Shown piece after piece: positions 1,526 to 33,259 of a DNA stretch of 36,551 nucleotides (position 1 is the stretch's first letter; each line of letters begins with the position of its first letter). Source of the stretch: Actinomyces polynesiensis (GTDB taxonomy: Bacteria; Actinomycetota; Actinomycetes; Actinomycetales; Actinomycetaceae); the NCBI RefSeq assembly GCF_000820725.1, contig NZ_CCXH01000002.1, forward strand, positions 1 to 36,551. The letters are read 5' to 3'. Under the pieces are notes generated by a model. That model saw nothing but the letters and a program-made list of their open reading frames with translations. It had not been told where the DNA came from and ran no database searches. The position numbers were made by a program, and so were the translations under genes.

Positions 1526-1532
1526 CACGCCG

Positions 1533-1555
1533 ATCCACAGGTCTTGACTATTGCT
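1533..1555 (-). repeat. right terminal inverted repeat of IS256 element
   Basis: Read on the minus strand this begins AGCAAT and ends ACCTGTGGAT, mirroring 88-110. The next base starts the surviving permease sequence. Confidence 0.8.
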
Positions 1556-7218: not shown

Positions 7219-7302
7219 TTGAGCGCGTCGTTGCGGGGGTGAGGGTCGAGGTCTCCCGATGATGGAAGTTCTCACACTGACCATCTGCCGGAAGACCTCG
7301 AC

Positions 7303-8628: not shown

Positions 8629-8640
8629 TTACGAAGAGCC
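8613..8640 (-). repeat. right terminal inverted repeat of ISL3 element
   Basis: The reverse complement begins GGCTCTTCG and ends GTAGGTGG. It overlaps the last codons of the transposase, whose stop is 8626-8628. Confidence 0.88.
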
Positions 8641-10566: not shown

Positions 10567-13500
10567 ATGACACCCTCGACTCCTGCCGGTCCCCATGGCT
10601 CCCGCATCCGGAGGGGCCGCCACACACGTCTCCTGGTCTCTGCCCTGGCCGCGGCCGGCCTCGCGGCCGCCGGCACCACGGGTCTGGTCCCCGCCTCGCA
10701 GGCCGTGCCCGCCGCGACCGCCCCGGCGGCCAGCATCAATCAGGTGACCGTCACCCCCAACCCCTGGTACGCATCGGGCCCCTTCCAGGGTTGGGGCACA
10801 TCCCTGGTCTGGTTCGCCAATGCCACGGGGGACTACCCCGAAGAGCTGCGCTCCCAGCTGTACGACCTGCTCTTCTCCCAGGAGGACGGTCTGGGCCTGA
10901 CCATCGCGCGCTACAACATCGGTGGCGGCAACGCGAGCGACGTGCCCAGCTACCTGCGCGCCGGAGGTGCCGTGGACGGGTACTGGCGCCAGGATGCGGA
11001 CGGTTCCACCGGTCTCTACGGCGGCAGCACCACCAACTATGTCGACAAGTCCGCCGTGCGCGCGAACTTCGATGCCACTGACGACGCCTACTACGACTGG
11101 GACAAGGACTCCACCCAGCGCTGGTGGTTGGAGAAGCTGGTCCAGGACGACAACCTCACCGGTCTGGAGGCCTTCGCGAACTCCGCGCCCTGGTTCATGA
11201 CCGAGTCCGGCTATGTCTCCGGCGGCTTCAACTCCACGGCCCAGCAACTCAGCAGCGACGCCGTCCAGCAGTACGTCCAGTACCTGGTCCATGTCACCGA
11301 GCACCTCGAGGACCAGTACGGTGCCACCTTCAACACCTTGGACCCCTTCAACGAACCCAACACGAACTACTGGGGCACCGGCATCGTCAACGGTCAGCCC
11401 TCGGCTCGCCAGGAAGGCATGCATGTCGGTGCAGCCCAGCAGGCCACCGTCATCGATGCCCTGCAGAAGGCCCTGGAGGATGCGGGCTCCGACACAGCCA
11501 TCTCCGCCATGGACGAGACCAACACCCCCACCTTCGTCAACAACTGGACGTCCTATCCCTCCTCGATCCGCGACGCGGTGACCCAGATGAACGTCCACAC
11601 CTACTGGTCCCCGACCACGGAGCAGGTACGCGACCTGGCACGCAGCGCCGACAAGAAGCTGTGGATGTCCGAGGTCGAGGGCAACTGGGACAGCACCGGC
11701 TTCAACCCCTCCTCAACGGCGAATGCGCTGGGCTTCGCGGGCAAGATCGCTGACGACCTCAACGGCCTCCAACCCAATGCGTGGGTCCTGTGGCAGCCCG
11801 TGGAGGACTACTACAACATGCAACTCAAGGAGAAGCTGAACTGGGGCGAGATCGACATCGACTTCGACTGCCAGTACTACGACACCGTCACCGACCAGGC
11901 GCTCGGCACGACGGACTCCGCGCCTGACGGACACGGGAGTGCCTTCCTCTCCGACCGGCGCGTCGCCGACAACGGGGGCAGGACATCTGGGGTGGAGCCC
12001 TGCAGGATCCTGTTGAACTCCAAGTTCAACGTCCTGCGCAACTACACCAACTTCATCCGCCCCGGTGATTCCCTCGTTCCCACGAATGACACCGCTTCCA
12101 CGGCCGCGATCGGCGCGGACGGCACCTCGACCACCGTCGTGCACCGCAATGAGTCCACCTCCGCGCAGACCGTCACCATTGACCTCTCGAAGTTCGCGGC
12201 GATCGCCCAGGGCGCCTCCGCCACCGCCTATGTCTCGACGACGCCGAACTCGTCCGACGGGACGCCCTCGGAGATCATGGAGACCGGCCTGGTCGCCCAG
12301 GACCCCGTGGCCGTGGACGCGGACGCGAAGTCCGTGACCCTCACGGTCCCCGCCCAGTCGGTGACCACCATCGTCGTCGACGGTGTGTCCGGGACGTCCG
12401 CGGACACCGGCGTGCAGAGCGGGACCACCTACCAGCTCATCGGCGTCCAGTCCGACCTGGCCCTGAGCGCCACCACCTCCACCGACGGCAAGGCCGGTGT
12501 CTCCGTCGTCACCCCTGCCACCACCGCCTCCGCGGCCAAGGCCCAGACCTGGACCTTGCACGAGGCGGGACGTTCCGCGATCAGCGGAGCCCGCAGCTAC
12601 GTCCTCCAGTCCGCCTCCGGGAAGGTCCTCACCTCCGCCTCCTCGACGGTCGGCACCGGTGGGGGAACGGTCTCCGCCTCCGATCTGACCCTGGAGCAGG
12701 CGTCCTCCGACCCGAGCGCCCTGTGGACGATCGGCTCCACGGACGGTACCCGCACCACCTTCGTCAACCAGAAGACGGCCCAACCCATCGAAGTCGGAGG
12801 TCAGTCGAGGGCCAGCGGCGCCGCAGTGGACGTGTGGCCCAACAACGGGGGCGACAACCAGCTGTGGACCCTGCGCTCCACCACACCCACCGGCAGTGAG
12901 CCGGCAACGGCTGCCACACCTGCAGGCACCTCGCCCACGCTTCCCACCACGGTCATCCCAACGTACTCCTGGGGTGCCGGCGCACCCGCACCAGTGGCCT
13001 GGGACGAGGTCCCCGACACCACCTGGGCCACCCCCGGGCTCGTCACGCTCACCGGGACCGCGACGGACATCTTCGGCAACACGCTGCCCGCCACGGTGAA
13101 GGTCGCCGTCGGTGCATTCACCGTCACCGACCCGACGTCGATGACTGTCGCTTCGGGCACCACCCTCGCAGCCGTGCGGGCCGCGGCCCCCACCATTGTC
13201 GACGCACGTGTCGGAACTGATCCGGAGACGATCTTCGAAGCACCCGTCGTCTGGGACTGGAGCGGACTGGGCGACAGCTCCTTCGCGCAGGCCGGGGTGG
13301 TCACCGTCACGGGCACCGCCGAGTCCAACGACACCGACGCGGGCCCCCTGAAAGCGACCCTCTCCGTCATCGTTCTCGACGGAACACTGTCCTCCACCAA
13401 CCTGTGTGCCACGGGCAACTCCGTGACCGTGGTCGCGGCCTACACGGAGGGCAACTACAAGCCCGCCAACACCTGTGACGGGAACACGAACACGTACTGG

Positions 13501-14805: not shown

Positions 14806-14848
14806 CCCAGGGCCCGGCCGCCACATCCACGGTGGCCGGGCCCCTGGG
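14806..14848 (+). terminator. hairpin terminator after the GH30 gene
   Basis: The stretch from CCCAGGGCCCGGCC just after the stop codon pairs with GGCCGGGCCCCTGGG ending at 14848, with two bulged bases. It is very GC-rich and lacks a T-run, as is common for actinobacterial hairpin terminators. Confidence 0.65.
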
Positions 14849-14903
14849 CCCACCCTTGAGCCGTCACGACCGTCGACCCGCCGGCCCACCCGCACCCACC
14901 CCA

Positions 14904-14933
14904 GACATCCCACTTCACTGGTCGACATCCCAC
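14904..14933 (+). promoter_or_regulatory. direct repeat upstream of the sialidase-like gene
   Basis: GACATCCCAC occurs at 14904-14913 and 14924-14933. The 20-bp offset is about two helical turns, so a dimeric regulator could bind both on one DNA face. It lies 22 bp before the start codon, too close to be an activator site if transcription starts upstream. Confidence 0.4.
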
Positions 14934-14955
14934 ACAGTCGCAGGAAGGGTCATCG

Positions 14956-17900
14956 ATGACGATGGCAGGACTCACCACACCCTCGAACAGGAACACCCGC
15001 CCCACCACGCACCTACGCAAGCGGATCACCCGCGCGTTCCTCGTCGGCCTCGTCTCCCTGGGCATGGTCGCCACCGGTGCCGCCAGCGTGCAGGCCGACG
15101 CCTTCAGCAATTCCGAGGAGGCCATCCTCAGCTACTCCCCGGCCTCCAGCAATGCCTTCGTCGGCTCACCCACCCTGGAGGTCCTCGACGACGGCTCCTA
15201 CGTGGCGGCCTCCAACCGCTTCGGGTCGGGAGCCGACGCCTTCGGTACGGGCGGGAAGCGCTTCACGGAGGTGCTGCGCTCCACCGACAAGGGCACCACT
15301 TGGACCCGGACCGCCGTGGTCGAGCCGATGTTCTGGGCGACCGTGTTCCAGTTGGGGGACTCGCTCTACCTGATGGGCAACGGCTCCGCCGATGAGTACG
15401 ACGACATCGTCATCTCCCGCAGCACGGACGCCGGGGTGACCTGGTCCACCCCCAGCGTCCTCAAGGAGGGGACCTACACGACCGGGGACACCCCGGTGGC
15501 GATCGCCAACGGGCGGGTCTACAAGTCCTTCGAACGCTACCTGGGCGGCGGCTGGGGGAACTTCCGGGCGATGGTGGTCTCCGCCCCCCTCGATGCCGAC
15601 CTCACGGATCCCGCCAGCTGGACGGCGACCAATGAGGGCACCACCAACCTGGTCCTGGAGGGCAACACGGTCGTGGACCGTGACGGCAATGTGCTGGACA
15701 TCCAGCGCTGGCACGACCACCCCACCCAGACGATGTGGGAGCAGATCAGCCCCGATGGCACGACACTGACGGAGCTGGGGGCAGTGACCTGGCCGCGAGG
15801 GGTCTCCATCAACAAGTTCTACATCCTGTGGGACCAGCCCTCCCAGCGCTACCTGATGGTCGGCAACCCGGAGACCGAGGACAAGTTCTCGGGTCTGGCA
15901 CACCACCGCAATGTCCTGGCGCTCTACGAGTCCCCCGATCTCAAGGACTGGCAGTTCGTCACGAACCTGGTCCTGGATGACCAGGGCCAGACGTGGGAGC
16001 AGTCCGTGCGGACCACCGCCTTCTCCCAGCCCACCATCCAGGTGGACGGGGACGACCTGCTGTTGGTGTCGCGCACCGCCTACGAGGGTTCCAGCACCAA
16101 CCACAACACCAATCAGATGACCTTCCACCGCTTCGCGGACTTCCGGACATGGCTGGGTCAGGGCAGGGAGGTCCTCCACCTCGGGTTCGACGACACCGAT
16201 GACCTCGGCGCCGACACATCTGCCACCGCAGGCATCGAGGCGGAGACCGTGGCGGGAACCGTCGTCGAGGACGGGGCGTCCGGTTCGGCCTACGCCCCGA
16301 CTGCCGGTGGCATGGACCTGGGCAACCAGGTGCACCCTGCCCTGTGGGGCGCCCAGGGCATCACCATGGCGGCGTGGACCCGCGCCCAGAGCCCGATCCC
16401 CCAGAACGGTGTGATCTTCCAGAGTGCCGTCAACGGGAGCACCACGGGTGCAGAGGTTTCGCTGCGAGCACCCGCCAACGGCGTCGGTGCCCAGGTGCGC
16501 GCAGAGGTGAGGGCCACCAGATCGACCCCTGCCGTCGTGCGCACCGTCGCCTACCCCGATGACGGGGCGTGGCACCACGTCGCAGCCGTGGCGGACCTGG
16601 TGGGCAACACCATGCGCATCTACATCGACGGTGAGGAGGTGGACCCCCAAGGCGCCACCGTGTCCTACGGATCCAGTGAGTACAAGGTCTCCAACCCGAC
16701 CGTCCACGACCGCGTCGGTTCCGCCACCTGGGGTGCCGCACTGGTGGGAGACCTCGACGACCTGCGCATCTTCCGCGCAGCCCTGGGCGCGCAGGACGTG
16801 GCCGACTTGGCCGACACCACGATCCCCGCCCTCACTCGGGTGACGGTCAACGGAGAGGACGTGGCCTTCACACCCAGCGCGGACGTGCAGACCCTCACCG
16901 TGGATCCCGGCACCACCCACTTGGGACTCACCGCGGGGGACGGAACCACGGTGTCGCCCTCGTCGACGGATGTGGACCTGTCCGCCGGCCAGAGCCGTGT
17001 CGTTGAGGTCCAGCTCACCTCCGGTGGTGCCTCCCGCACCCTGACGCTGCGTCTGCGGGCACCTGCTGCAGCGGAGTCCACCACCGATGTCGTTGGCGTC
17101 TACTTCTCCGGCGCGCCCGCCGTGTACCCGCAGGCGGGGAGCGACGAGTACCACCTCCGCGTCGGCGCCCTGCCCGGCGTCAGCCCCGCCGCGGTGTCCG
17201 TCTCGCAGGTCGTCACCCGATCCCCACACGCACGTGCCGAGGTCATCGAGCAGCCCGACATGACCTCTGACTCACCACGTGCCCAGGTGCGGGTCACCGC
17301 CCAGGACGGGACCACCCGCGACATCACCATCGACATCGACGTCGTGCGCGACACACTGGTGGGGCACTGGACCTTCGACGAGGACCAGTGCTGCACATGG
17401 AAGGACTCCTCACCCTTCGGGCGTACCGCCACCGGAACAGGGACCGCCTCCGACGGTGCGCGCGCTGGCGCCATCACCCTGGACGGGACCGCGCGCGTCG
17501 TGCTGGGCAACACCGTGGACGAGGCGCTCACCGGTGCTCCCGCGATCACGGTGGCCGGCTGGATCAAGCCGAGCGCCCTGGCGGAGTCGGGGGAGAACAA
17601 CGTCGTCTTCGGCACGCGCGTCAACGCGAAGTCCGCCGGGATGGACGTGATCTTCGACGGGAAGAACCTACGGGTGGCAGGGCGCTCCAGTGCGAGCGAC
17701 TCCTACCAGAAGGCGCTCTTCGCCTACCCCGATGACGGCCGGTGGCACCACATCGCCGCCACACTGGACTTCTCCGCGAAGCAGATCAGGCTGAGCATCG
17801 ACGGCCTCGCCGTGAGCGCCCTCCCGGGCGTGGCACCCGTGTGGTCCTCTGCCACCTATCGGCCGGGCAACCCTGCGGACCCCTCCACCCTGGGAGGTTC

Positions 17901-18798
17901 GCCCTCTGCAGGGCTCTTCTTCACCGGGTCCCTGGACGACATGCGCGTGTACGGGAAGGCGCTCGGTGATGCCGAGGCGGCCGATCTGGCCCGCGCGGAC
18001 CTGCCCACGGTCAGCGCGGAGACCACGCCGGAGACTGCCAACGCAGCCGGATGGTTCACCACCACCCCCACTCTCCGGTTCCGCACGACGCAGCCGGTGG
18101 GGGGTCAGGCGGTCACCGTCACCCACACGATCGATGGCGGCGAACCCCAGTCACAGGAGGTAGGCACCGGCCTCACGACCGCGCCCCTCGAACTGGGGGA
18201 GGGACGCCACTCGGTGGTCTTCCACGTTTCCCAGGGCGGCACCGACGGCCCTGAGCAGAAGATCGAGGTGGCCGTCGACACGCAGGCCCCACAGGTCTCC
18301 GCCAGCGTCGACACGGACGGGGCAGCAGCCACGGTGATCCTTGACGCCCAGGACGCCACCTCAGGGGTCGCCTCCGTGGAGTGTGCCCTCGACGAGGGCG
18401 AGTGGGAGGACTGCTCGGAGGGTGTGCGTGTGACGGAGGTCGGGACGCACACGGTGCACTACCGCGCGGCTGACGTCGCCGGGAACACCTCCGCCGGTCA
18501 GGAGCTCCAGGTCACCCTCGAGGAGGATCCGGGGACGGACCCCGGCACTGATCCGGGGACCGATCCGGGGACGGACCCCGGCACTGATCCGGGGACGGAC
18601 CCCGGTAGCGATTCCACTCCCGCACCCGGCGGTGCGGCGACTCCGACACCGAGCAGTGCGAGCAGCAGCCCCGCCGCGGCCGCCACGGGCTCGGGCCTGG
18701 CGACCACGGGAGCGAACGCCCTGCCCGCACTCGCCCTCCTGACCGTGGTCCTGCTCTCCCTCGGAGCACTTCTGGTGACCGGGCGCCTCCGGCGCTGA
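14956..18798 (+). CDS. cell-wall-anchored sialidase-like beta-propeller protein with two LamG domains
   Basis: This 1280-residue secreted protein begins at an ATG after GGAAGGG (14943-14949). The signal peptide ends near residue 49 (SVQADA). Residues ~55-400 form a six-bladed-type propeller with at least two Asp-box turns, STDKGTTW (~110) and STDAGVTW (~156). Annotators would call it exo-alpha-sialidase, but I cannot find the FRIP/YRIP arginine motif of GH33, so it may act on another sugar or be a different propeller glycosidase or lyase. LamG-like lectin domains lie at ~406-621 and ~801-1015, each with YPDDGxWHH. An Ig-like segment, an Ig-like domain with AGNTS, a DPGT repeat linker, then LATTG (1248-1252), a hydrophobic helix and RLRR follow. 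It is flanked by hairpins, which suggests its own transcript. Confidence 0.85.
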   Translation: MTMAGLTTPSNRNTRPTTHLRKRITRAFLVGLVSLGMVATGAASVQADAFSNSEEAILSYSPASSNAFVGSPTLEVLDDGSYVAASNRFGSGADAFGTGGKRFTEVLRSTDKGTTWTRTAVVEPMFWATVFQLGDSLYLMGNGSADEYDDIVISRSTDAGVTWSTPSVLKEGTYTTGDTPVAIANGRVYKSFERYLGGGWGNFRAMVVSAPLDADLTDPASWTATNEGTTNLVLEGNTVVDRDGNVLDIQRWHDHPTQTMWEQISPDGTTLTELGAVTWPRGVSINKFYILWDQPSQRYLMVGNPETEDKFSGLAHHRNVLALYESPDLKDWQFVTNLVLDDQGQTWEQSVRTTAFSQPTIQVDGDDLLLVSRTAYEGSSTNHNTNQMTFHRFADFRTWLGQGREVLHLGFDDTDDLGADTSATAGIEAETVAGTVVEDGASGSAYAPTAGGMDLGNQVHPALWGAQGITMAAWTRAQSPIPQNGVIFQSAVNGSTTGAEVSLRAPANGVGAQVRAEVRATRSTPAVVRTVAYPDDGAWHHVAAVADLVGNTMRIYIDGEEVDPQGATVSYGSSEYKVSNPTVHDRVGSATWGAALVGDLDDLRIFRAALGAQDVADLADTTIPALTRVTVNGEDVAFTPSADVQTLTVDPGTTHLGLTAGDGTTVSPSSTDVDLSAGQSRVVEVQLTSGGASRTLTLRLRAPAAAESTTDVVGVYFSGAPAVYPQAGSDEYHLRVGALPGVSPAAVSVSQVVTRSPHARAEVIEQPDMTSDSPRAQVRVTAQDGTTRDITIDIDVVRDTLVGHWTFDEDQCCTWKDSSPFGRTATGTGTASDGARAGAITLDGTARVVLGNTVDEALTGAPAITVAGWIKPSALAESGENNVVFGTRVNAKSAGMDVIFDGKNLRVAGRSSASDSYQKALFAYPDDGRWHHIAATLDFSAKQIRLSIDGLAVSALPGVAPVWSSATYRPGNPADPSTLGGSPSAGLFFTGSLDDMRVYGKALGDAEAADLARADLPTVSAETTPETANAAGWFTTTPTLRFRTTQPVGGQAVTVTHTIDGGEPQSQEVGTGLTTAPLELGEGRHSVVFHVSQGGTDGPEQKIEVAVDTQAPQVSASVDTDGAAATVILDAQDATSGVASVECALDEGEWEDCSEGVRVTEVGTHTVHYRAADVAGNTSAGQELQVTLEEDPGTDPGTDPGTDPGTDPGTDPGTDPGSDSTPAPGGAATPTPSSASSSPAAAATGSGLATTGANALPALALLTVVLLSLGALLVTGRLRR
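18526..18606 (+). repeat. DPGT-coding tandem repeat in wall-spanning linker
   Basis: Units of 12 bases coding Asp-Pro-Gly-Thr are repeated about six times with synonymous variants. The array spaces the enzyme away from the wall-anchored end. It is prone to copy-number change by slippage. Confidence 0.85.
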
Positions 18799-18805
18799 CC
18801 CCATC

Positions 18806-18852
18806 CGGCCCGGCCGGGACTCCCCTACAGAAGGGAGGTCTCGACCGGGCCG
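18806..18852 (+). terminator. hairpin terminator after the sialidase-like gene
   Basis: CGGCCCGG at 18806-18813 pairs with CCGGGCCG at 18845-18852, and GGGACTCCC pairs partly with GGGAGGTCTC, closing an 8-nt loop. The imperfect stem lies eight bases after the stop codon. Confidence 0.6.
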
Positions 18853-18982
18853 TGGGAGGGTCCGTGGATCCGTTGGACCTGGAAGCAGCGGGCGGTCCCG
18901 GCAGCTGCCGTCGGAGCACGTCCCAATGGTCGCGGTCCGGATTCCGGGCCACTGACCATCCACGCCACCGCGAACCCGCTCA

Positions 18983-19010
18983 CCGCACTCCGACCGACCG
19001 CATTCCGACC
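18983..19010 (+). promoter_or_regulatory. tandem 13-bp repeat upstream of the acetylesterase gene
   Basis: CCGCACTCCGACC at 18983-18995 and CCGCATTCCGACC at 18998-19010 differ at one base and have a period of 15. The gene-free stretch 18853-19110 otherwise shows only the ribosome-binding site GGGAAAGGA before the ATG at 19111. Confidence 0.4.
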
Positions 19011-19110
19011 CAGCACACAACGAGCCACCGACCCACACACCACCACCTGCTCCCAGCGGGAGCCCCCACGGCCGATGCCGACCGCAGGGCGCCCGGGAAA
19101 GGACCTCACC

Positions 19111-22100
19111 ATGTCCCATCCGCACACACCCCGGCGCACGGTCCCCCTCCTCGCCGTCACGGCCCTGGTCGCCGCGACAGCAGTGGTCGGCACGGGCTCT
19201 CCCGCCGCCGCGGCCCCCGACGTGTCCCCGGGCGCCACAGCCTGCGACACCGAAGCACAGGGGGAGGGCATGGAGGTGGTCCAGCAGGTGGACCTGCCCA
19301 CCTCGAAGTGGAACGGCGTCTGGAACTACGACGCCACCGCAGCCATCGGGGCCTTCGACCGGGTCGGGTACTGCCTGGAACTGGGCGCCACCCAGAACAC
19401 GCAGAGCGTCTACACCTCGATGCAGGCCTTCACCACGGATGCCACACGCATCGGTCTGCCCACCGCTGCCGGCGACATCCGCCGCCAGCGGGTCTCCGAC
19501 CTCCACGTGTCCTCCACGGCAGCCAATGTCCCCACCGGTGACCACGAGCAGGGCTACATCGAGATGTGGGGGACCGACTTCGACCCCGCCTCCTCCGGAC
19601 AGGTCCCCGGTGCCAGCGCCACCACCTACGACGCGGACGACCGTCCCTCCGCCACCGGCACCTACGGCTCCTTCCAGGTCCACGCCATCGCCGAGGACCT
19701 CACCGGTTCCACACCGCCCGCCACGGTCCTGGCGGTCAACGCCTGGAACAACTCCTCCTTCACACTGGACCTGGGGATCGGGACCTCCGCATCCGGCAAC
19801 CCCGACTGGACCTTCGCCCACAACGCGACGGGTACTCCACACGCCGACTGACCGTCTACGCCCGTCCCGCCCTCGTCACCCTGGACGAGTCCCCCCAGGA
19901 CCTGCGCCTCTACCCACGCGGGGAGGACGGAACTGGTGACGTGGCCGTCTCCGGGCATGCTGATGCCTCCGTCACCGCGTTGTCCCTGGAAGTGCGCGCA
20001 GACGGTGAGACCGAGTGGAGCGCCACCAACGTACCGATCGCCTCGGACCGTTCCTTCTCGGGAGCGGTGTCCATCCCTGCGGAGCTGCGCAACCGTGAGG
20101 CCCGTCTGGTGGCCACCTCCCCGACGGGACCGAGAGTGGTCGGGCACTGGCACGGACTGGTCGCGGGTACCGTCGTGGTCCTCCAGGGCCAGTCCAACGC
20201 CGAGGCCATGGGGATGACGGCCACCGACCAGGCGGCCGGCAACACCCACGTCTCCGAATGGGTGCGCTCCTTCGGCTCCCCGGAGCAGAACGCCGTGCTC
20301 TCCGGGGCCGAGCAGACCTGGAACTACGCCCAGGCCAATGTCGGCAGCATCGGTGACAGACGCTGGAACGCCGGCCACGTCGGCATGTGGGGCCTCAAGA
20401 TGGGCGCCGACCTCGCCCAGGACAGCGGGATCCCCGTCGCCGTCATCAACGGCGCCAAGGGCGGACAAGTCATCGAGTACTTCGCGCGCAACAGCGCTGA
20501 CCGCGCGGACCTGAACACCAACTACGGGCGTCTCTACACCCGCATGCGCAATGCCGGGCTGCTCAACCAGGTGGACGCCCTGATCTTCTACCAGGGCGAG
20601 AGTGACCACGACCGTGCCGCCGAGCACATCGACGGGTTCGGACGCCTCCTGGAGGGGTGGACCCATGACTTCGCCCGTGGTGCCCAGACCTCCACGATCG
20701 ACTACTACGCCTTCCAGGTGCGGAGCTCCTGCGCTGCAGCGTCCGTGGGCATCACCCTGCGCGAGGCGCAGCGCACCCTGCCCACCACTTTTCCCGGGTA
20801 CGACCTCACCGTCCTGTCCACCACCGGCATCCCCCGCCACGACGGCTGCCACTACCCCTATGCCGGGGGATACGAGACCATCGCCCAGGAGGCCGAGGGA
20901 GTCCTCCTGCGTGACCTCTTCGACGGCGATGGCGCTGGCTACACCGCACCCACCCCCGCACTTGTCAGCGGTTCTGCCACCTCCTCCGTCCTGGAGCTGC
21001 AGCTCGCCGACGCGGACGACTCCCTGAGGATTTCCGGGGATCCCTCCGGTGACTTCGCCCTCACCGGCTCCCAGGCGAGCATCACGCGGGTCACCAACGC
21101 GGGGGGTGGTCTGCTGCGTCTCTCGCTGGACGGGCCGTTGGGGTCAGGGGCCACGGGGCTCACCTACTACGGACACGTCGGCACGGGCCCGACCATCGCC
21201 ACCAGCAGGGACGTCGGACTCCTCAGCTTCAACGCCTTCCCCATCACCCTCTCCGGGACCCCCGCCACCACCGCGACGCTTGCCTCGGTGACCCTGGACG
21301 GTCGGGCCCTGGACGGTTTCGACCCGGCGACGACCACCTACGAGGTCGACTCCACGGGAGGTGTCCCCACTGTGGTGGCCACGGCAACGGATCCGGGGGC
21401 CCAGGTCGAGGTGCGCAGCGCAGCCGAGCGCGTGGACATCCGCGTGACAGCCGCCGACACCACCACGACGACCACCTACACCATCTGGTTGCGACGGGGC
21501 ACGGACTGCTCGGTGTCGGAACCCTGGCGCATCGCCGCCTGGGGTGGCGCCCAAGCATCCTCCTTCTGCGCCGAGGGCACGAACTCCTTCGTCATCGGTG
21601 ACGGCAACCAGGGAATGTGGACCACCTACGACTCCATGTCCACGATCTACAAGTCCGACGCACTCGGGGTGGGCGACGCCCTCGACGTGCGCCTGGCATC
21701 GCTGGGAACCGAGGTCAACGCGGACTCCCGGGCGGGGATCGTCGTGCGTGACGACCTCTCACGGGGCGGCTCCTCAGGGGCGTCCACGGGGTATGCGACG
21801 CTGGCGGTGTCCGGGCAGTCGGGGGCCTTCATGCAGTGGGACGCCGACGGGAACGGGTGGATCGACTCCGAGAGTGCCAAGACGCCCGGCATGAAGGCAC
21901 CCGTCCACCTGCGCGTGGTACGCGAGAGCGCCGACACCCTGGTGGGCTACGCCCGGAGCAGTACCGGCGACCCCTGGACCAGGGTCGCCACGGTCACGCT
22001 GCGCGGAGTCGGGGAGAAGCTCGACGTCGGTGTGTTCGCGACGTCCAACCGTGCATCCGGCGCTCTGGAGACCGCTCGCCTCCAGGGTGCGACCCTGTGG

Positions 22101-24134
22101 CACGAGGGCGCCGAACCGGTGGCAGTGGCACAGCCCACCATCGAGGGAACAGCTGATGCCGGCGCCGAACTGCGCGCTGTGGTCCCCTCCACCGATCCGC
22201 AGGATGCCGAGATCTCCCTGCAGTGGTTGCGGGACGGTCACCCGATCCCCGGCGCGACGGGGAACACCCACCGCGTGACGGCCGAGGACTCCGGGGCCAC
22301 CCTGGCCGTCCAGGTGACGGCCAGCGCCGAGGGGCGCACCCCGGGCAGCGGCGTCTCGGACCCGGTCCACGTGGGGCGCATCCCCGCAGCCGGCATCGAC
22401 TGGGTGGAGGTCTCAGGGACGCCGCGTCCCGGCGCCACCCTGAGCGCCTCCACGACCGCCACACCCGGGGACACCACCGTGTCCTACCAGTGGCTGCGTG
22501 ACGGGGAGACGATCACGTCGGCGACGTCGGACACCTACACGGTGAGTGCCGCCGACGCCGGCCACGCCCTCTCCGTGCGGGCCACCGCGGAGTCGTCTGT
22601 GGCCGGGCAGGCCACAGCCACCTCCCGCAGCCTGGGGGTTGCCGTACTCCTGGCGGCATGGTCCTTCGACGCACCCTCCGACAACACCACCTTCGCGGAC
22701 TCCACAGGTGGGGGTCGGGACGTGACGATCTCCTCCGGACAGGTCACGGGACCCATCGGGGGAGCCATCGAACTGGACGGCACGGCGCGCGGCACCCTCG
22801 GGGGTGAATCCCTGGCCACAGCGCTGGCCGGGGCACCGGCCGTGAGCGTGTCGGCCTGGATCCGCCCCACCGACCTGGACCGGGGTGGTGACACGGAGGG
22901 GAACTGGGTCCTCGGCACCCGCATCGACCAGGCCAAGGCCGGCATCGATGTCGGGTTCGTCGGGGCACACCTGCGCGTGGCGGCCCGCTCCACCGTGGAT
23001 GACCCCGACAACAGCGTCCTCGTCGACTACCCCGATGACCAGCAGTGGCACCACATCGCCACCAGCATCGACTTCGTCGCGGGCACGATCCGCGTGTGGA
23101 TCGACGGAGTGGAGCAGGACCGCGTCGCGGGCAGCACCACGATCAACTTCGCGGCAGACTCCTACACGCCGGGCACCCCCTCCCAGCCCGACACCATCGG
23201 GGCCTCACCGGCCCCCGGTGCCGGAGCATTCACCGGAGGCATCGACGAGCTGCGCATCCAGGCGGGCGCCGTGGGTGACCAGGAACTGCAGGCACTGGCC
23301 ACCCCGCAGGCACCCGGTGTCACCATCGAGACGGATCGGGTCCCCGACCTGGGCGTCTGGCACCGCACCGCACCGGGAGTCACCTTCCCGCTGGCCGTTC
23401 CACTGGCCTCCACCGTGGGCGTCGAGTACCGCCTGGGAGGCGGGGACTGGACGCCGGTCGGGCAGGAATCGCTCCAGGTGCCCGACGGTGTCACGACGAT
23501 CGAGGCACGCTCCGTCGTGGGTGAGGACCGTGGAGCAGTCTCCGCCACGACCCTCTCCGTTGACACCGTCGCACCCGTCGTACAGGTGGGCGACGAGCCC
23601 GACCCGCAGGGCGGACGCAGCACGATCACCGTCACCGCCACCGACGTGACCTCGGGCACCGCCAGCACCGAGGTCAGCATTGACGAGGGCGACTGGCAGC
23701 CCTGGACCACGGCCCTGGAGGTCAGTGGGACGGGGGAGCACAGCGTCCGCGCACGCGCCACGGACAGGGCCGGCAACACCTCGGAGGTGGTCACCCACCA
23801 GGTGACGATCGCGGACACCGACCCCGGGACCGACCCCGGGACCGATCCCGGGACCGACCCGACCCCCGCACCGAGCCCCTCACCCTCCGACGGGGGTGGA
23901 ACCCCGGGTGGAAGCACGGGCGACGACTCCGCCTCGGGTGGGTCAGGCGCCGGTGGCACCGCCTCCGCCGCCACCACGGGCGCCGTCCAGGGCGGCTCCC
24001 AGCAGGGGAGCAACCTTGCCCGCACGGGAGCCGGGTCCGCCCTGCTCCTGACCAGCGCCCTGGCCCTCCTCCTGGCGGGCATCGGCACCTCAGGACTGCG
24101 CCTCCCGCGCAGGCGGCGGGGTGAGGGGCAATGA
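19111..24134 (+). pseudogene. sialate O-acetylesterase-like SGNH surface protein, frameshifted
   Basis: The frame from the ATG at 19111 gives a signal peptide (to ~37) and an N-terminal beta-rich module, but stops at 19851. A second frame picks up at 19833 as YSTRRLTVYARP and runs to 24134. Losing one base near GGGTAC (19829-19834) explains the break; restored length is about 1674 residues. The SGNH domain has GQSNAE (Ser codon 20193), FYQGESD and the catalytic DGCH. A cadherin-like sandwich, a concanavalin-like module, two Ig-like domains (each with QWLRDG), one LamG domain (YPDDQQWHH), Ig-like domains, a DPGT linker, LARTG (24015-24029), a hydrophobic helix and RRRRGEGQ follow. It would remove O-acetyl groups from sialic acids or other sugars. 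It is either broken or carries a sequencing error. Reading frame upstream of 19833 in the second frame is spurious. Confidence 0.85.
23817..23865 (+). repeat. DPGT-coding tandem repeat in acetylesterase linker
   Basis: Near-identical 12-base units (GACCCCGGGACC type) occur four times, coding DPGTDPGTDPGTDP before a Pro/Ser-rich spacer. It is the same linker type as in the sialidase-like protein. Confidence 0.8.
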
Positions 24135-24246
24135 ACAGCCACCACCACGCGTACCGGGTGGACACCCGCGCCCACGACACGGGTTCCGCGCCACAGCGCG
24201 TGTGGACCACCAGCAGCGACGTCACGACGGATCGAAGGGAACCCTG

Positions 24247-27200
24247 ATGGAGACCACAGCACACCGGCCGCGCCGCCCGGGAGCAGTGCGCGGCCCCGCG
24301 CGAGGCGCACGGGCTGCAGGACGTGCCCTCCCCACCTGGGCAGCACGTGCCGGGGCGATGCTCACCGGCCTCGCCCTCGTCGCCTCCGGGGTCGGGCTGG
24401 GGGCACAGCCCGCATCGGCGGAACCCGCGACGCCCGCAGCAGATCCCCTGGTCGTCGCCCAGCAGGACGACGTCACCTACCGGTTCGTGGAGGCCTCGGG
24501 CTCCGCACAGGGGTACGTCCTCGAACTCGACCGGGAGGACGTGCCCCAGTGGCGCACCTCGTCGGGCGCCGTGGGTGTCACCGTGCAGGGGTACTCCACC
24601 GTCAACGCTCCGTACGAGGACGTCACCACCCAGGGTGACACCCGTGTCGCCACTGCCAGCGTCACTGTCGGGGCAGGCACCGTGGTGGAGGTGAGCGACA
24701 CCTACTCCTTCTCCGAGGGGACCCTGGAGATCGCCCGCACCTTCGACGTGACCGCGCTCGCGGCCGCGGACGCGGGGAAGGGGATCTCCCTCACCTTCCC
24801 CCTCGCCGACGCCACAGGGAAGGCACCCGGGTCCTACAAGTGGTTCTCCCCGGGCACCTGGTACGGCAATGACTCGATGACCTTCACGGACCGCAACACC
24901 ATGGCCTTCGACGGGGTGGAGACCTCCCTACCGGTGGACGCCATGACCGCGCCCCTGGTGACCGCCTGGGACCAGTCCTCGACCTACGCCCTCACGCTGC
25001 TGGACCGCACCCCCGGCAAGCGGGAGACGATCGCGGCGGACAAGGACCCCCAGACCTCCAAGACACTGGTCGACGCGCGCATCAACCTCGCCAGCCTGGG
25101 GTTGCGGGCGCTGTCGGGCTCCGGCGGCGCGACCGAACTGTTCCAGACCTACCCGGGCACCAACACGAACTACCGCAACCGCTACTCCGGCAAACCCACC
25201 GCGGCACGCATGGTTCCGCTGTCCCAGGACCTGCACCGGGAGACGGGGATGGCGCTGCGCTACGGGAGTGCGGCGACGTTCGACGACATGGTCACCTCCG
25301 TGTGGCGTCAGGCATTCGCCGAGAGCGCCCGCACCGTGGACCGCGTCGACACGAAGACCCACTTCGACACCATGGTCGACTACATCTACAACTCCTACGG
25401 GACATCCGGCGGGAAGCGCGTCTACTCCACCAACTACGAGCTGCTCCAGACCTCCAGCGGGTTCCTGTGGCGACAGGCCGACCTGGCCTCGATCCAGTTG
25501 GCCCAGGGGTGGCAGCGCGGCGATGAGGAGATGAAGCAACGTGCCCGCAACGTGATCAACGACCAGATCACCAAAGGTGGACTCGTCTCCTCCAACCCCC
25601 GCACCCATGCGGAGGCCATGACGGCGGTCCTCAACGCCTACCTCACGGACCGCGAGCAGGGCACCGACAACCCCACCTGGTTGGCGACCGTGCGCGGCTA
25701 CGGGGACGGCCTCGCGGCCACGCCGAGCATCTGGGCGGTGCCCGTGCTCCTGGACCTGGCGAGCACCACCGGCGAGGCCGGGTACCGCACCAAGGCCTTG
25801 GCCGCCGGGCAGGCCGCCTACCAGACCCAGTCCAAGGACATGTACTTCGTGGGTTCCCTGGAGGACTACAACGGCGGGCCCTCTGAGCGTGACCGTGAGA
25901 TGGGTCTGACCTCCCTGGAGGCCTACATGGCCCTCTACCGGGACTCGACCACCGCGGGTGACAGGGCGAAGTGGCTGGGAGCCGCCCAGCTCGCCGCCGA
26001 CTACTCCGAGACCTGGAGCTACGTCCAGGACCTGACCACGAACCCCGAGGACGCCTCGGCTGACCTGGTGATGTACGGCAATGACCACCTGCCGCCCTAC
26101 GGGATCAGCCAGATCCATGCCGGCGCCGCAGGTGGGGACGTCGCTGCCGCCTTCTTCGTCACCGAGTACTACGAGCTGTGGGAGGCCACCGGGGACGAGC
26201 ACTACCGGGACTTCGCCGTGTTCCTGGAGAAGAACTCCATGCTCTACACGAACATGGGGGACAAGTACGGCCAGATGGCTGACTCCGTGAAGGGATCCGG
26301 ACTGGGCTTCACCAATGAGTACCTGGGCACGGCCGCCAACGACTACTGGAACAACAACCAGCGGGGCGACGGCAACCGCTCGAACATCGGGTGGGCCACG
26401 TACATGCTGGCGGGCATGACCCAGAAGACCCTGGACCGTCTCGGCCGCTACACGGTCGCCGAGCCGACGGTGTCCGACATCAACGGTCTCAACGCCTACT
26501 ACCGACTGGTCAACCGGGCCACGGGCGAGGCACTCGATGTCAGCGACGCCTCACGTGCAGACGGTGCCGCCCTCACCACCACGCCCGTCGAGTCGTCCAC
26601 AGGGGTCTCCACCCAGCAGTGGCTGCTGGAACCCCAGGGCGAGGAAGGACCCGGCGGCTTCAAGGTGGTCAACCGCTCCACCGCGAAGGTGTTGCGCCCC
26701 CAGGGTGATTCCACCAGCGTGGGTGCGGGAGCCGTCCAGAGCATCCCCATGCCGGGACAGCACCTGGGCTACACCTTCTCCCAGCAGGCCGACGGGAGCT
26801 ACCTGGTCACCAACACCGCGTCCGGGAAGGTCCTGGAGCTCAACGACACCGACCCGGCCCTGCCGACGGTCCAGCAGAACACTGCCACAGGATCCGACTA
26901 CCAGAGGTGGTACCTCCAGCCCGTCGGTGATCTCCAGATCCTGGACGCCACCGCCTCCCGGGTCCTGGGAAGCACCCAGGACGGGGTGTCACGCCAATCC
27001 TTCGACGACAATGCCACCACCGCCCAGCGGTGGAGCGCCGTGCCCTCCCTGGACGGATACGTCGGCCTGGTCTCACGTGACTCCGGTCTGGCACTGAGCG
27101 GGTCCGGTGCCACGCCCTCCCTCAGCGCCGCGGGCGCCCCCGACGTCCAGGGGTTCTCACCCGCACAGCAGTGGTTGGTCACGTTGCTCCCCGACGGCTA

Positions 27201-30200
27201 CTTCACGCTGACCTCCCGGGAGGGCCGCTCGCTCGCCGTCGACGGGGACGAGGGCGTCGCCCTCGTCGATGCCGCCTCCGACGGTGCCGCACGTTTCCGG
27301 GTCACCACGGCCGGGCCCGCCACCGTGGACTCCCCGGCCAGTGCCGTGCTCAGTGACGCCGTCACCCTCACGGTCCTCCAGGGTGCGCGGGCCGAACTCC
27401 CCGACTCCGTCACGGTGCACCACTCCGACGGAGCCACGAGCACGGAGCAGGTCCAGTGGGACCTCTCCGGCCTCGACACCCGGGTCGCCGGCACCCACGA
27501 CGTCACCGGGACACTGCCCGGCACGGGTGTCCCCGCACGCGCACGCGTGGTCGTCGTCCCCGAGGGTGACGTGACCGGCCTGCACACGGTGCACCTGGTC
27601 ACCACCGTCGGCACCGTCCCCGTCCTGCCGGGTCTGGTGGTTGCCACCACAGCGGACGGGCGTGAGATCGAACTCCCCGTGACCTGGCAGGGCGTGGACT
27701 CCAGTGACTTCGCCGAGATCGGCGAGGTCACTCTCGCGGGGAGCGTGACCGGGTCCACGCTGCAGGCCAGCGCAGTCATCACCGTCTCGGAGACCCTCAC
27801 ACCCATTGCCGCGGTCCCCGTGGTGCAGGTGCGCACCCAGGCCGGCCAGCGTCCCGTCCTGCCCCAGGACATCGACGTCACCTTCACTGACGGGAGCCAG
27901 GGCTCGGTCCCCGTCCAGTGGCAGGGCGTGGAGGACACACAGTATGCGTCACCGGGCTACTTCACTGTGGACGGCACCACGCCGGGACACCAGGGTGTCG
28001 TGCGCGCCTACGTCACGGTTGCCCAGGTGCTCAACCCCTTCGGCACCGGGGGGGCGAACTGTTGGACGCCCGGCGGGGACGGGACATGGACTGCGGACGG
28101 CTCCCGACTGATCCACGGCGGCAACACAGCCAACAGATCCTCCTACGCCCACGTCTGCGACCCGGTCCAGGGTGGGGCGCTCACCCTGGCCGACGGTATC
28201 GTCGAGACCACGTTGAGCCTGACCTCGACCTACGGCAACGGTGGTCTGTGGGTGCGCTCCAGTGGCACCGACAACGACCGGGACGGCTACTACCTCGGAG
28301 TCGAGCAGCACACCACGAACTTCGTGGCAGGCAAGCAGGTCAACGGCCAGTGGAGTGACGCGATCCAGTGGGCCTACGCCGACACCGGCGTGAAGGGGTC
28401 CGAGTCGCGTCACCTGAAGGTGGTGGCCGACGGGTCGCAGCTGTCGTTCTTCGTCGATGACATGGGGGAACCAGTCCTGACCCAGGAGGACTCCTCCTTC
28501 GCGTCAGGCACCGTGGGGGTGCGGACCTGGCGCTCAGGAGCGGAGGTCACGTCCTTCGTTGTGCGTCCGCTCACCAGCGTCGTGACTGCCTCCGACACGG
28601 CGGTGACCACGTCCGTGGGCACGGCGCCCGCACTGCCGGCCACGATCAGTGCGTTGGACTCCGCGGGTGACGTGGTGTCGACACCGGTGACCTGGGAGAC
28701 CCCCGACCCCGACCGCTACACCACACCGGGCTCCTTCACGGTCCGGGGCCGTCTCACCGGTCTTGACGTCACCGCCGTCGTCACGGTGGAGGACGCCGCA
28801 GCCGCTGCCACCGTGCGCGTGCCCCTGACCCTAACGCGGGTGGGAGTGGCACCGGTCCTTCCCGCGACCGCCACGGAGACGCTGCCCGACGGCACCACCC
28901 GTGACGTCGCGGTGACCTGGCCTCAGTTGGATCCCAGTGACTTCGCCGGGGCCGGGTCCTGGGTGGATGTCGGGGGAACCGTTGTGGGGTCCGCCGAGAC
29001 GGTCACCGCACACGTGGCGGTGGCCAGCTACTCCGACTCCTTTGCCTCCACCGGGGTCGAGGGTTGGAGGACGTACGGCGGGACCTGGTCCACGACCGGA
29101 CCGTCACTGGGCGTGAAGAGGGACACGGCCTGGGGTCGCGGCGAGAAGGCAGTGGCGGATGCTGCTGCGCCCGACGACCTCGTCTACCAGGCGAATGTGC
29201 GTGTGACCGAGGGCAACCAGGCGGGACTCCTGTTCCGCGTGAGCGACCCGGGCGTGGGCGCCGACACCTACCGCGGCTACTACGCGGGCATCGACACCAC
29301 GACCGGCCATGTGATCCTCGGAAAGGCCGACAACGGGTGGACCTCGATCAAGGAGTCCGGAACGGTTCCGGGCATCGCATTCAACCAACCCGTGCAGTTG
29401 CGGGTGGTGGCGCGCGGCTCCCACATCCAGGTGTTCGCAGGTGACATGACCACCCCCGTCATCGACGTCGAGGACTCCAGCCACTCCAGCGGGTCGATCG
29501 GTGTGCGCGGTTGGAACAGTGCCTACCAGGTCTCCGACGCCCTGGTGTCAGGGGTTGCGGACGTGGTCTCGGTGGAGGAGGTCACCACCTCCGTCAAGGG
29601 CAGCGCTGCACCGTCCCTGCCCTCCACCGTACGCGTCACCTACGCGGACGGCTCCTCCGGGCAACTGCCCGTGGAGTGGGACCTCACGGAGGACCTGGAC
29701 CGCACCCAGCCCGAGATCGTCATCACCGGTGCCGTGACGGGGAGCGACATCCCCGCCAGGGCCCTCGTGCAGATCCTGGGTGCCAGTGACATCACCAGCA
29801 CCATGACCGTGTCCGTCTCGACCACCGTCGGGAGCGCCCCGGTGCTGCCCTCCACGGTCAGCGTCACCCGGGTGGAGGGTTCCGTTGCGGACGAGGACGT
29901 GACCTGGGACCAGATCGACCCGGCGCGTTACGCCCGGTCCGGGGCCTTCGTGGTCACCGGGCACCTCACGGACCACCCGGGTGTGGCCGCACATGCCCTG
30001 GTGTACGTGCACGAGGCCACTCCTGACCCTGACGAGATCGTCGAGATCACGCCGGTGGAGGTGGAGACCACGGTCGGCACCGCTCCCGGGCTGCCGGGCC
30101 TGGTCACCGCCGTCCTGGCCAATGGGACCACGCGGGAGGTGGCCGTGACGTGGGATGGCATCACCGCCCAGGAGTACGCCCAGCCAGGGGCCTTCGAGGT

Positions 30201-31227
30201 CCACGGACGCGTCGCGGGCACCGAGGTGAGGGCACTGGCCACCGTCACGGTGGTCGAGATCCCCGCAGGCACTGGGTCCATCGCCGTGGAGGCACGCATC
30301 GATGGAGCGGCAGCCGCGACGGCCCCGGAACAGATTCTGGCCGACGTGGTCTGCACGCTGGACGGCACTGAGGTGGACCTGGGGGACATGACGCGGGTCC
30401 CCGTCGCCACCGGAGGTGCGAGCGTACGCATCGACGGGATCCCGTTGGGTGCCCGGTGCACGGTGAACCAGCAGGGAGAGGTCGGCTCCTTCGGTGAGAC
30501 CCGGCGCTCCTCGACCCCCGAGGGTGGGACGGTCACTGTGGAGCAGAGCGTCGCCGGTGGGGCCGAGGTGCCCGCCGGACAGCGGGTGGTCCTGGTCAAC
30601 ACCTACGACTGGTCTGCCGGTCTGTCCCTCACCCAGGTGGTGCGCGGGGAGGACGGCGCACCCGGGGTGGCGAGTGCGAACCTGGTGGGCGGTGCGAGTT
30701 GGATCGCCATCGGTGGTGGAGCCCCGGGTTCGGTGGACTATGCCCTGAGCTGCTCGACATCTGACGGTCGGCCCGTCGGGGTGGGTGAGTTGGCCTCATT
30801 CCGTCTGACGCACGGACAGGAGGTGCACCTGGGCGGAGCCACGGTCCCTGTGGGGACACGCTGCACCTTGGCTGCCCGGGGCGAGGACGCCACTCACACG
30901 GAGTTCGGGGTGGACCCTGCCTCAACGGTGCAGGCGAACTCCTCGGGCATCCTCGACCTGGTGCTCGGTGAGGACGAGGTCACCATCGTCGCCACGACGA
31001 CCGTCGGGGCAGCCCAGCCCGGTGACGACGGCTCGCCTGATGGCAGTGGTGGCGAGAACGGTTCAGGCGGTCCCAGCACCGGCGCTGGCACAGGAGGACT
31101 GGCCCACACGGGTGCGGACTCCGTCTTGCTGATCACCTTGGGGCTTGTCGGCATGGTGCTGACGATCGCTGGACTGGCTCTCCTGTCCGGGCGTCGCAGG
31201 ATCACTGTGGAGGGTTCGCTCCGCTGA
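24247..31227 (+). CDS. giant cell-wall-anchored protein with unassigned (alpha/alpha)-type catalytic region
   Basis: This 2326-residue secreted protein starts at an ATG after GAAGGGA (24235-24241); an upstream GTG at 24121 is possible but less likely. The signal peptide ends near residue 58 (QPASAEP). Residues ~70-300 are beta-rich. Residues ~340-735 look like an alpha/alpha-barrel enzyme, with conserved-looking segments YNSYGTSGGKRVYSTNYELL, SLEDYNGGPSERDREMG and NDHLPPYGISQIHAGA. The family is not one I can name. A ricin-type lectin region (~742-1020, QQWLLEP, YQRWYL) follows. Then come eight bacterial Ig-like (group 4) repeats interrupted by two concanavalin-like modules (~1265-1440 and ~1595-1770). 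Two DUF5979-like domains precede LAHTG (2285-2289), a hydrophobic helix and a basic tail. It begins 112 bp after the acetylesterase stop with no strong hairpin between, so co-transcription is likely. Confidence 0.85.
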   Translation: METTAHRPRRPGAVRGPARGARAAGRALPTWAARAGAMLTGLALVASGVGLGAQPASAEPATPAADPLVVAQQDDVTYRFVEASGSAQGYVLELDREDVPQWRTSSGAVGVTVQGYSTVNAPYEDVTTQGDTRVATASVTVGAGTVVEVSDTYSFSEGTLEIARTFDVTALAAADAGKGISLTFPLADATGKAPGSYKWFSPGTWYGNDSMTFTDRNTMAFDGVETSLPVDAMTAPLVTAWDQSSTYALTLLDRTPGKRETIAADKDPQTSKTLVDARINLASLGLRALSGSGGATELFQTYPGTNTNYRNRYSGKPTAARMVPLSQDLHRETGMALRYGSAATFDDMVTSVWRQAFAESARTVDRVDTKTHFDTMVDYIYNSYGTSGGKRVYSTNYELLQTSSGFLWRQADLASIQLAQGWQRGDEEMKQRARNVINDQITKGGLVSSNPRTHAEAMTAVLNAYLTDREQGTDNPTWLATVRGYGDGLAATPSIWAVPVLLDLASTTGEAGYRTKALAAGQAAYQTQSKDMYFVGSLEDYNGGPSERDREMGLTSLEAYMALYRDSTTAGDRAKWLGAAQLAADYSETWSYVQDLTTNPEDASADLVMYGNDHLPPYGISQIHAGAAGGDVAAAFFVTEYYELWEATGDEHYRDFAVFLEKNSMLYTNMGDKYGQMADSVKGSGLGFTNEYLGTAANDYWNNNQRGDGNRSNIGWATYMLAGMTQKTLDRLGRYTVAEPTVSDINGLNAYYRLVNRATGEALDVSDASRADGAALTTTPVESSTGVSTQQWLLEPQGEEGPGGFKVVNRSTAKVLRPQGDSTSVGAGAVQSIPMPGQHLGYTFSQQADGSYLVTNTASGKVLELNDTDPALPTVQQNTATGSDYQRWYLQPVGDLQILDATASRVLGSTQDGVSRQSFDDNATTAQRWSAVPSLDGYVGLVSRDSGLALSGSGATPSLSAAGAPDVQGFSPAQQWLVTLLPDGYFTLTSREGRSLAVDGDEGVALVDAASDGAARFRVTTAGPATVDSPASAVLSDAVTLTVLQGARAELPDSVTVHHSDGATSTEQVQWDLSGLDTRVAGTHDVTGTLPGTGVPARARVVVVPEGDVTGLHTVHLVTTVGTVPVLPGLVVATTADGREIELPVTWQGVDSSDFAEIGEVTLAGSVTGSTLQASAVITVSETLTPIAAVPVVQVRTQAGQRPVLPQDIDVTFTDGSQGSVPVQWQGVEDTQYASPGYFTVDGTTPGHQGVVRAYVTVAQVLNPFGTGGANCWTPGGDGTWTADGSRLIHGGNTANRSSYAHVCDPVQGGALTLADGIVETTLSLTSTYGNGGLWVRSSGTDNDRDGYYLGVEQHTTNFVAGKQVNGQWSDAIQWAYADTGVKGSESRHLKVVADGSQLSFFVDDMGEPVLTQEDSSFASGTVGVRTWRSGAEVTSFVVRPLTSVVTASDTAVTTSVGTAPALPATISALDSAGDVVSTPVTWETPDPDRYTTPGSFTVRGRLTGLDVTAVVTVEDAAAAATVRVPLTLTRVGVAPVLPATATETLPDGTTRDVAVTWPQLDPSDFAGAGSWVDVGGTVVGSAETVTAHVAVASYSDSFASTGVEGWRTYGGTWSTTGPSLGVKRDTAWGRGEKAVADAAAPDDLVYQANVRVTEGNQAGLLFRVSDPGVGADTYRGYYAGIDTTTGHVILGKADNGWTSIKESGTVPGIAFNQPVQLRVVARGSHIQVFAGDMTTPVIDVEDSSHSSGSIGVRGWNSAYQVSDALVSGVADVVSVEEVTTSVKGSAAPSLPSTVRVTYADGSSGQLPVEWDLTEDLDRTQPEIVITGAVTGSDIPARALVQILGASDITSTMTVSVSTTVGSAPVLPSTVSVTRVEGSVADEDVTWDQIDPARYARSGAFVVTGHLTDHPGVAAHALVYVHEATPDPDEIVEITPVEVETTVGTAPGLPGLVTAVLANGTTREVAVTWDGITAQEYAQPGAFEVHGRVAGTEVRALATVTVVEIPAGTGSIAVEARIDGAAAATAPEQILADVVCTLDGTEVDLGDMTRVPVATGGASVRIDGIPLGARCTVNQQGEVGSFGETRRSSTPEGGTVTVEQSVAGGAEVPAGQRVVLVNTYDWSAGLSLTQVVRGEDGAPGVASANLVGGASWIAIGGGAPGSVDYALSCSTSDGRPVGVGELASFRLTHGQEVHLGGATVPVGTRCTLAARGEDATHTEFGVDPASTVQANSSGILDLVLGEDEVTIVATTTVGAAQPGDDGSPDGSGGENGSGGPSTGAGTGGLAHTGADSVLLITLGLVGMVLTIAGLALLSGRRRITVEGSLR
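27307..30255 (+). repeat. eight group 4 bacterial Ig-like repeats within the giant protein
   Basis: Protein-level repeats of about 70-75 residues follow a pattern of V-T-T-x-G-x-x-P-x-L-P, then V-x-W, Y-x-x-P-G-x-F and A-x-V-T-V. They start near 27307, 27580, 27800, 28590, 28800, 29570, 29800 and 30040. Concanavalin-like modules occupy about 28040-28570 and 29030-29560. They probably form a rigid stalk. Confidence 0.75.
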
Positions 31228-31773: not shown

Positions 31774-31779
31774 GGGGTG

Positions 31780-33178: not shown

Positions 33179-33224
33179 TGCCCACGGACGTGGCCGGCTC
33201 GGCGGGTCGGCGCAGACCCATCCC

Positions 33225-33253
33225 GTGCACAGGGACGAAGGTCCCCCTAGAGT
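33225..33253 (+). promoter_or_regulatory. promoter of third TetR gene, leaderless
   Basis: -35 GTGCAC at 33225-33230, a 17-nt spacer, and -10 TAGAGT at 33248-33253. The ATG at 33260 is 6 nt after the -10, so the transcript should begin at the start codon. No Shine-Dalgarno is present. Confidence 0.55.
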
Positions 33254-33259
33254 CGGTGA

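Follow-up and report, generated by a model that had tools for sequence, protein, structure and literature searches.

A row of four genes in Actinomyces polynesiensis probably equips the cell surface to degrade the side chains of type II arabinogalactan, as found in plant arabinogalactan proteins and gums. This polysaccharide is well supported as the target of proteins 1 and 4. The window that we analyzed comprises 36,551 nucleotides and is the entire contig C2 of one draft genome (309 contigs, 95% complete). Four long open reading frames follow one another on its forward strand between 10.5 and 31.2 kb (Table 1). The genes are contiguous on one strand with intergenic gaps of 112 to 312 bp, and their likely starts, judged by reading, are 10567, 14956 or 14962, 19111 and 24247. 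Signal peptides were assigned by reading of the sequence rather than by a tool.

Table 1. Genes of the cluster and a transporter remnant in the window
Feature	Position	Strand	Description
Protein 1	10567..14805	+	Secreted; GH30 beta-1,6-galactanase-type head, RicinB, Big_4, F5/8C and Ig-like modules, LARTG
Protein 2	14956..18798	+	Secreted; putative Asp-box beta-propeller head (about 15094-16185), two LamG_3 stretches, OmpL47-type domain, LATTG
Gene 3, first part	19111..19851	+	Signal peptide (by reading), N-domain without Pfam match, ends at the frame break
Gene 3, second part	19830..24134 (start in the true frame approximate)	+	SASA/SGNH esterase (GQSN, DxxH), LamG-like tail, LARTG
Protein 4	24247..31227	+	Head (24427-26475), RicinB, Big_4 in 8 stretches, 3keto-disac_hyd, DUF5979, LAHTG
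ABC sugar permease remnant	1522..2163	+	Overlap between its 5' end and the right end of an IS256-like element; at most a candidate member of the system; families by reading

All four C-termini carry an LAxTG motif (LARTG, LATTG, LARTG and LAHTG in gene order) followed by a hydrophobic stretch and basic residues. Because the Pfam model Gram_pos_anchor matched none of the four proteins, its sole two matches in the genome lying on contig C240, the assignment as wall-anchored proteins rests on this motif. Two sortase matches were found in the genome, away from the cluster. An earlier note on this DNA had described four large wall-anchored proteins in a row, each with a distinct enzyme-like head and with carbohydrate-binding modules. 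The row of reading frames and the sorting motifs were confirmed, but gene 3 is frame-broken and does not encode one intact secreted protein. The heads are indeed distinct, comprising a GH30 type, a putative Asp-box propeller, a SASA esterase and a head lacking a Pfam match. Binding modules were detected by Pfam in proteins 1, 2 and 4, whereas protein 3 had no Pfam lectin match and has a tail that resembles the LamG-bearing tail of protein 2 (39% identity over 436 aa). Since these tails are homologous, we grouped proteins 2 and 3 as a pair. RicinB and Big_4 modules are common to proteins 1 and 4 according to Pfam.

By its sequence and active-site residues, protein 1 is well shown to be of the GH30 beta-1,6-galactanase type. 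The best solved match of its head was the S. avermitilis endo-beta-1,6-galactanase Sa16Gal30A (PDB 24td, E 2.9e-34). The accessible part of the description of this enzyme names Glu217 and Glu320 as the catalytic residues (acid/base and nucleophile) and lists galactose contacts through Gln229 at the axial O4 as well as through Tyr294 and Trp350 in subsite -1 (PMC13431644). In the alignment all five residues are identical in protein 1, and with both catalytic glutamates and Gln229 kept, the earlier assignment to GH30 enzymes that cut beta-1,6-galactan was borne out. In contrast to Sa16Gal30A, protein 1 has a sorting motif and lectin modules, and two positions are altered, the distal-site Trp341 being replaced by Gly and the subsite residue Asp354 by Glu. 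Trp341 belongs to a distal galactobiose site which the same source, as far as accessible, proposes as a trait of GH30_5 without making it a definition (PMC13431644). Moreover, the Pfam match of protein 1 was not GH30 but the related GH59 (35.7 bits). Owing to the Gly at this distal position and the GH59 match, exact membership in GH30 subfamily 5 is stated as probable. The homologue of protein 1 in Galbitalea matched Pfam Glyco_hydr_30_2 with 68.6 bits. A comparable arrangement is the beta-galactan locus BLLJ_1840/1841 of Bifidobacterium, of which we take BLLJ_1841 to be a GH30 enzyme. Adjacent surface beta-1,3- and beta-1,6-galactanases of a Gram-positive bacterium are described for this locus in the accessible part of the source (PMC8406136). 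Our cluster, however, combines the GH30 protein with a PL27-like one, a propeller and an esterase, and Pfam detected no GH43 among the four proteins.

Gene context in relatives also bears on the substrate. Of 98 related genomes, 13 carry a GH30 homologue, our own included; only one of these 13 is among the 34 further genomes of the genus. Around eight of the 12 other homologues the region was compared: a GH35 akin to that of our genome was found in four (L058, L059, L060, L063) and related permeases in six (L058, L059, L060, L063, L064, L065), while L061 and L062 had neither. The closest parallel was found in Galbitalea sp. SE-J8 (L009), where a homologue of protein 4 (49% over 1987 aa) precedes one of the GH30 protein (35% over 1226 aa). 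Upstream of this pair lie genes for a GH35, a solute-binding protein and permeases of an ABC transporter, and LacI. Thus a GH30 gene lies in the same cluster as the gene of the protein 4 clade in both lineages that we know of (own and Galbitalea). In the Galbitalea operon the two homologues are adjacent, and it differs from our cluster in that it includes the GH35, the transporter and the regulator; the homologue of protein 4 has no sorting motif at its end, where the own protein has LAHTG, and no propeller-head or esterase-head match was found in the 21,150 of 30,770 bases covered.

In the own genome, a LacI/ABC/GH35 operon is located on contig C245. A comparison of ten loci showed its products to be nearest to those of Galbitalea (solute-binding protein 70%, permeases 68 and 75.5%, GH35 52%), except for LacI, which is nearest to L065. 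Together with the GH30 type, the gene neighbourhoods in relatives and the own operon support the proposal of type II arabinogalactan as one substrate. The idea of a complete utilisation system could not be upheld, as the window holds only the permease remnant and the GH35/ABC/LacI operon sits elsewhere. By reading of the open reading frames, the window has neither an intact sugar transporter nor a GH35, and the combination of transporter and regulator at the same locus that characterizes a Gram-positive glycan utilisation locus was not found at the cluster. Scans of the window with Rfam and for tRNAs gave no matches; a promoter and terminator scan was uninformative, with no promoters and six terminators, compared with 3.7 expected. 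Directly behind the cluster (31777-34012) there are three tandem TetR-like regulators, mutually similar by eye, and it is possible that they act on the cluster.

Further genes in the window were assigned by reading. Upstream of the cluster we found a CpsD/Wzz-like kinase (3802-5559) and a LytR-CpsA-Psr-like protein (5683-6717). An ISL3-like element with 28-bp inverted repeats (7191-8640, transposase 7303-8628) sits between polysaccharide-export-type genes and the cluster. The IS256-like element at 88-1555 has 23-bp inverted repeats and encodes its transposase in two overlapping frames (220-831 and 797-1525).

Protein 4 comprises 2326 aa. Its head had no Pfam match, and the only NCBIfam match to the whole protein was HypBA2, which scored 60 bits where the cut-off is 3200 and had its best stretch in the Ig-like part. 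The predicted model of the head (pLDDT 81.1) consists of an N-terminal beta-sandwich and a helical barrel. When this model was submitted to Foldseek, the top two matches were both PL27 (5no8, E 2.1e-11; 5nok, 8.6e-10), and the next one followed at 1.0e-6; at weaker E values multi-domain phosphorylases, GH116, GH63 and PL26 were also listed. In VIA, 5no8 was the only one of 50 listed matches that spanned both domains (Z 19.1 and rmsd 7.2 over 472 aligned residues), the matches ranked above it being single-domain alpha/alpha barrels (epimerases, GH76) with Z up to 20.6. The likeness is structural only, with 11% identity between the head and 5no8. A PDB search with the head sequence alone gave no match at E up to 1, and a profile of 22 family members yielded 16 matches, mostly generic alpha/alpha enzymes, 5no8 being absent at E up to 1. 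We describe the head as a predicted PL27-like two-domain fold that would resemble a rhamnose lyase. The earlier view of a fourth enzyme outside any family still holds insofar as the head has no Pfam match, but the predicted fold now provides a lead.

In the accessible part of the source, PL27 is described as a two-domain architecture of N-terminal beta-sandwich and alpha/alpha barrel that frees rhamnose from gum arabic through beta-elimination at GlcA (PMC8377490). The L-rhamnose-alpha-1,4-D-glucuronate lyase BACCELL_00875 (5no8) has this beta-sandwich and alpha/alpha barrel in common with the model of the head. Unlike BACCELL_00875, protein 4 has a sorting motif and a Gram-positive host, no link between the two was found at sequence level, and its genome gave no GH88/GH105 match. 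The latter was searched with PF07470, which we take to cover both families; there was no match in the own genome, a draft of 95% completeness, and 3 of 14 control genomes were positive. Cleavage by a Rha-GlcA lyase would produce an unsaturated uronic acid, and the lack of a PF07470 match is evidence against a lyase with a product that is metabolised further.

The head is rare among relatives, with matches in 3 of 98 related genomes and 3 of 396 genomes of the phylum, the own genome being counted in both and the other matches being distant or weak. None of the 12 other GH30-bearing relatives among the 98 has a match. A scan of a genome contig collection returned 24 family loci, of which 21 were aligned with the head; by record titles they belong to Actinomycetota, Bacteroidota, Planctomycetota, Verrucomicrobiota, Gemmatimonadota, Chloroflexota and Bacillota. 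A further relative, from Deinococcus, was detected separately. One relative in a genome of the same order (L004, genome G071) agrees in length and in its first 60 residues with the protein of an Occultella locus (L022), so that G071 may be an Occultella. The heads of our protein and of the Galbitalea homologue share several changes at sites that are conserved in the other 20 members (e.g. an Arg replaced by Pro and a Lys by Arg, both conserved in 20/20). Because of these shared changes the two form a clade of their own, and its chemistry need not equal that of the rest. Across the neighbourhoods of 14 of the 24 loci, genes were mixed; sulfatase-like proteins occur among them by reading, and no common theme was found. 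Two FGGY kinases near distant relatives were nearest to xylulokinase, below the cut-off. As judged by reading, two family members stand in tandem in a Planctomycetaceae MAG (L011, 7467-12034), and members in two Bacteroidota loci (L013, L020) lie amid several sulfatase-like genes. A Gemmatimonadetes MAG carries two members on one contig (L017, L023).

Gene 3 spans two reading frames. The open reading frame 19566-24134 is in the wrong frame for its first approximately 90 residues and has no signal peptide by reading. The signal peptide and the N-domain, which had no Pfam match, lie in the open reading frame 19075-19851 (likely start 19111), which stops in a frame other than that of the esterase. 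Therefore, 19566-24134 was rejected as a complete gene. The homologue encoded in G036, a related genome, holds both parts in one open reading frame of 1510 aa. The break in this one draft is either an assembly error or a pseudogene. The earlier prediction of an SGNH esterase with a GQSN motif was confirmed, as Pfam SASA (PF03629) matched with 49.3 bits against a cut-off of 24.8 and the GQSN and DxxH motifs are present; removal of O-acetyl groups would be the expected activity. G036 is the only one of 97 other relatives with an esterase homologue, and there the gene adjoins one for an alpha-L-rhamnosidase, followed by a GH20 gene.

For protein 2, the head matched Pfam BNR_2 below the cut-off and contains two SxDxGxTW Asp boxes. 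BNR_4, the seven-bladed propeller of PL42/GH145 type with its His/Arg site, was not among the Pfam matches, and a model predicted from the single sequence was too low in confidence to use (pLDDT 32.1). The arginine of the RIP motif is a canonical feature of GH33 sialidases. This position is Gly, Tyr or Thr here, and none of eight aligned members has an Arg two residues before the conserved Pro, the position being inferred since the local alignment to the sialidase begins at the Pro. Protein 2 was therefore rejected as a canonical sialidase. A first PDB profile search was led by GH33 sialidases; with a second, larger profile many GH33 were again listed, but sortilins scored best, so that the match is generic for Asp boxes.

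Relatives of the propeller are scarce as well. The window protein detected one of 72,556 plasmid records, and a further search with this relative added two. One contig of a phage collection and 5 of 395 other genomes of the order (one partial) held relatives, a viral contig collection held none, and 7 of 396 genomes in the phylum sample, including the own, gave short matches of Asp-box propeller type. In a Burkholderia and on a Sinorhizobium plasmid, homologues lie less than 2 kb from Kdo cytidylyltransferase genes; two Sinorhizobium records of equal identity were counted as one case, and propeller contexts are few overall. A homologue in a gut contig has a DHDPS-family aldolase and an SSF symporter nearby, and one in a related actinobacterium lies near sulfatase, DHDPS-family and beta-helix proteins. 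DHDPS-family aldolases also act in uronate catabolism. As a lead, the target of the propeller may be an acidic sugar, either ulosonic or uronic. The record L066 (1-4203), filed as an unverified bacteriophage, encodes an SSF symporter, a propeller protein and a DHDPS aldolase and looks like bacterial chromosome.

In the model that we favour, protein 4 would remove the caps first and protein 3, where intact, would de-acetylate the chains. Protein 2 may trim the ends, either by removing a terminal acidic sugar or by splitting a uronate linkage, and protein 1 would then cleave the side chains. The galacto-oligosaccharides would enter via the transporter of the LacI/ABC/GH35 operon on C245, with GH35 acting inside; anchoring by sortase would prevent the loss of enzymes and products from the cell. 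The enzyme class is well shown only for protein 1, and we infer the remaining steps.

The earlier note saw all four proteins acting in sequence on one glycan, with mucin as a candidate besides arabinogalactan. Surface glycan-degrading enzymes and arabinogalactan as one substrate stood up to our analysis, whereas mucin and the full locus did not; action of all four in sequence is still a proposal. Our observations group protein 1 with 4 and protein 2 with 3, and no direct evidence for arabinogalactan was found for proteins 2 and 3. A substantial, if minority, possibility is that two unrelated pairs lie side by side, proteins 1 and 4 acting on arabinogalactan and proteins 2 and 3 on another acidic O-acetylated glycan with a 3-deoxy-ulosonic acid (sialic, Kdo or Kdn type) or uronate. 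The similar tails of proteins 2 and 3, the RicinB and Big_4 modules of proteins 1 and 4, and the propeller homologues near Kdo cytidylyltransferase and DHDPS-family aldolase genes fit such a division. It accords less well with the tight spacing of the four genes on one strand and with the alpha-L-rhamnosidase beside the esterase homologue; moreover, the Sinorhizobium records are one case among few, and the aldolases could also serve uronate catabolism. Degradation of host mucin or sialoglycans by a sialidase (protein 2) and a sialate O-acetylesterase (SASA) appears very unlikely to us. The SASA match, the two Asp boxes, the GH33 sialidases in both PDB profile lists and the GH20 gene second along from the esterase homologue would agree with it, but the sialidase arginine is missing at the inferred position in 8/8 members, the best match of the larger profile to sortilins marks the Asp-box similarity as generic, and the esterase homologue directly adjoins an alpha-L-rhamnosidase. 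The GH30 galactanase and the GH35/ABC context also point to plant galactan.

On the same arabinogalactan, protein 4 might instead be a hydrolase, e.g. a glucuronidase or arabinofuranosidase, with the PL27 likeness reflecting shared architecture only, and we place this option somewhat below even. GH127 matched 13 and GH76 10 of the 22 family members (best E about 1e-6), alpha/alpha barrels occur across many activities, and the lack of GH88/GH105 matches in the genome is in line with it; yet PL27 led the Foldseek matches by over three orders of magnitude and was alone in covering both domains among the 50 listed VIA matches. A bolder form of the arabinogalactan model, which we consider rather doubtful, would make the head of protein 4 the founder of a new lyase family that is surface-anchored, acts on uronates and is distantly related to PL27 by fold alone, and with which Gram-positive bacteria would uncap arabinogalactan side chains. 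It would act within a four-step wall-bound system for acetylated arabinogalactan, together with an arginine-less, sialidase-like propeller of new ulosonate or uronate specificity and a de-acetylase.

Removal of Rha-GlcA caps from plant gums is described for Bacteroides (PL27, PL42/GH145) and for a fungus (PL42) in the literature that we consulted, which included the accessible parts of PMC8377490, PMC8406133 and PMC7889515. In the literature covered by our search, i.e. titles and the beginnings of abstracts, neither a wall-anchored PL27-like protein nor this gene set was described, which is weak evidence of novelty because most subscription papers were outside its scope. The kind of system is known, and this gene set looks new in its composition. 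The propeller belongs to a family without family assignment that recurs near 2-keto-3-deoxy-acid genes in the few contexts covered. If our reading is true, a wall-anchored actinobacterial counterpart from a family without assignment would widen the tool set for arabinogalactan. Moreover, it would offer new enzymes for the structure analysis of gums and give a function to a multi-phylum family for which no named family was found.
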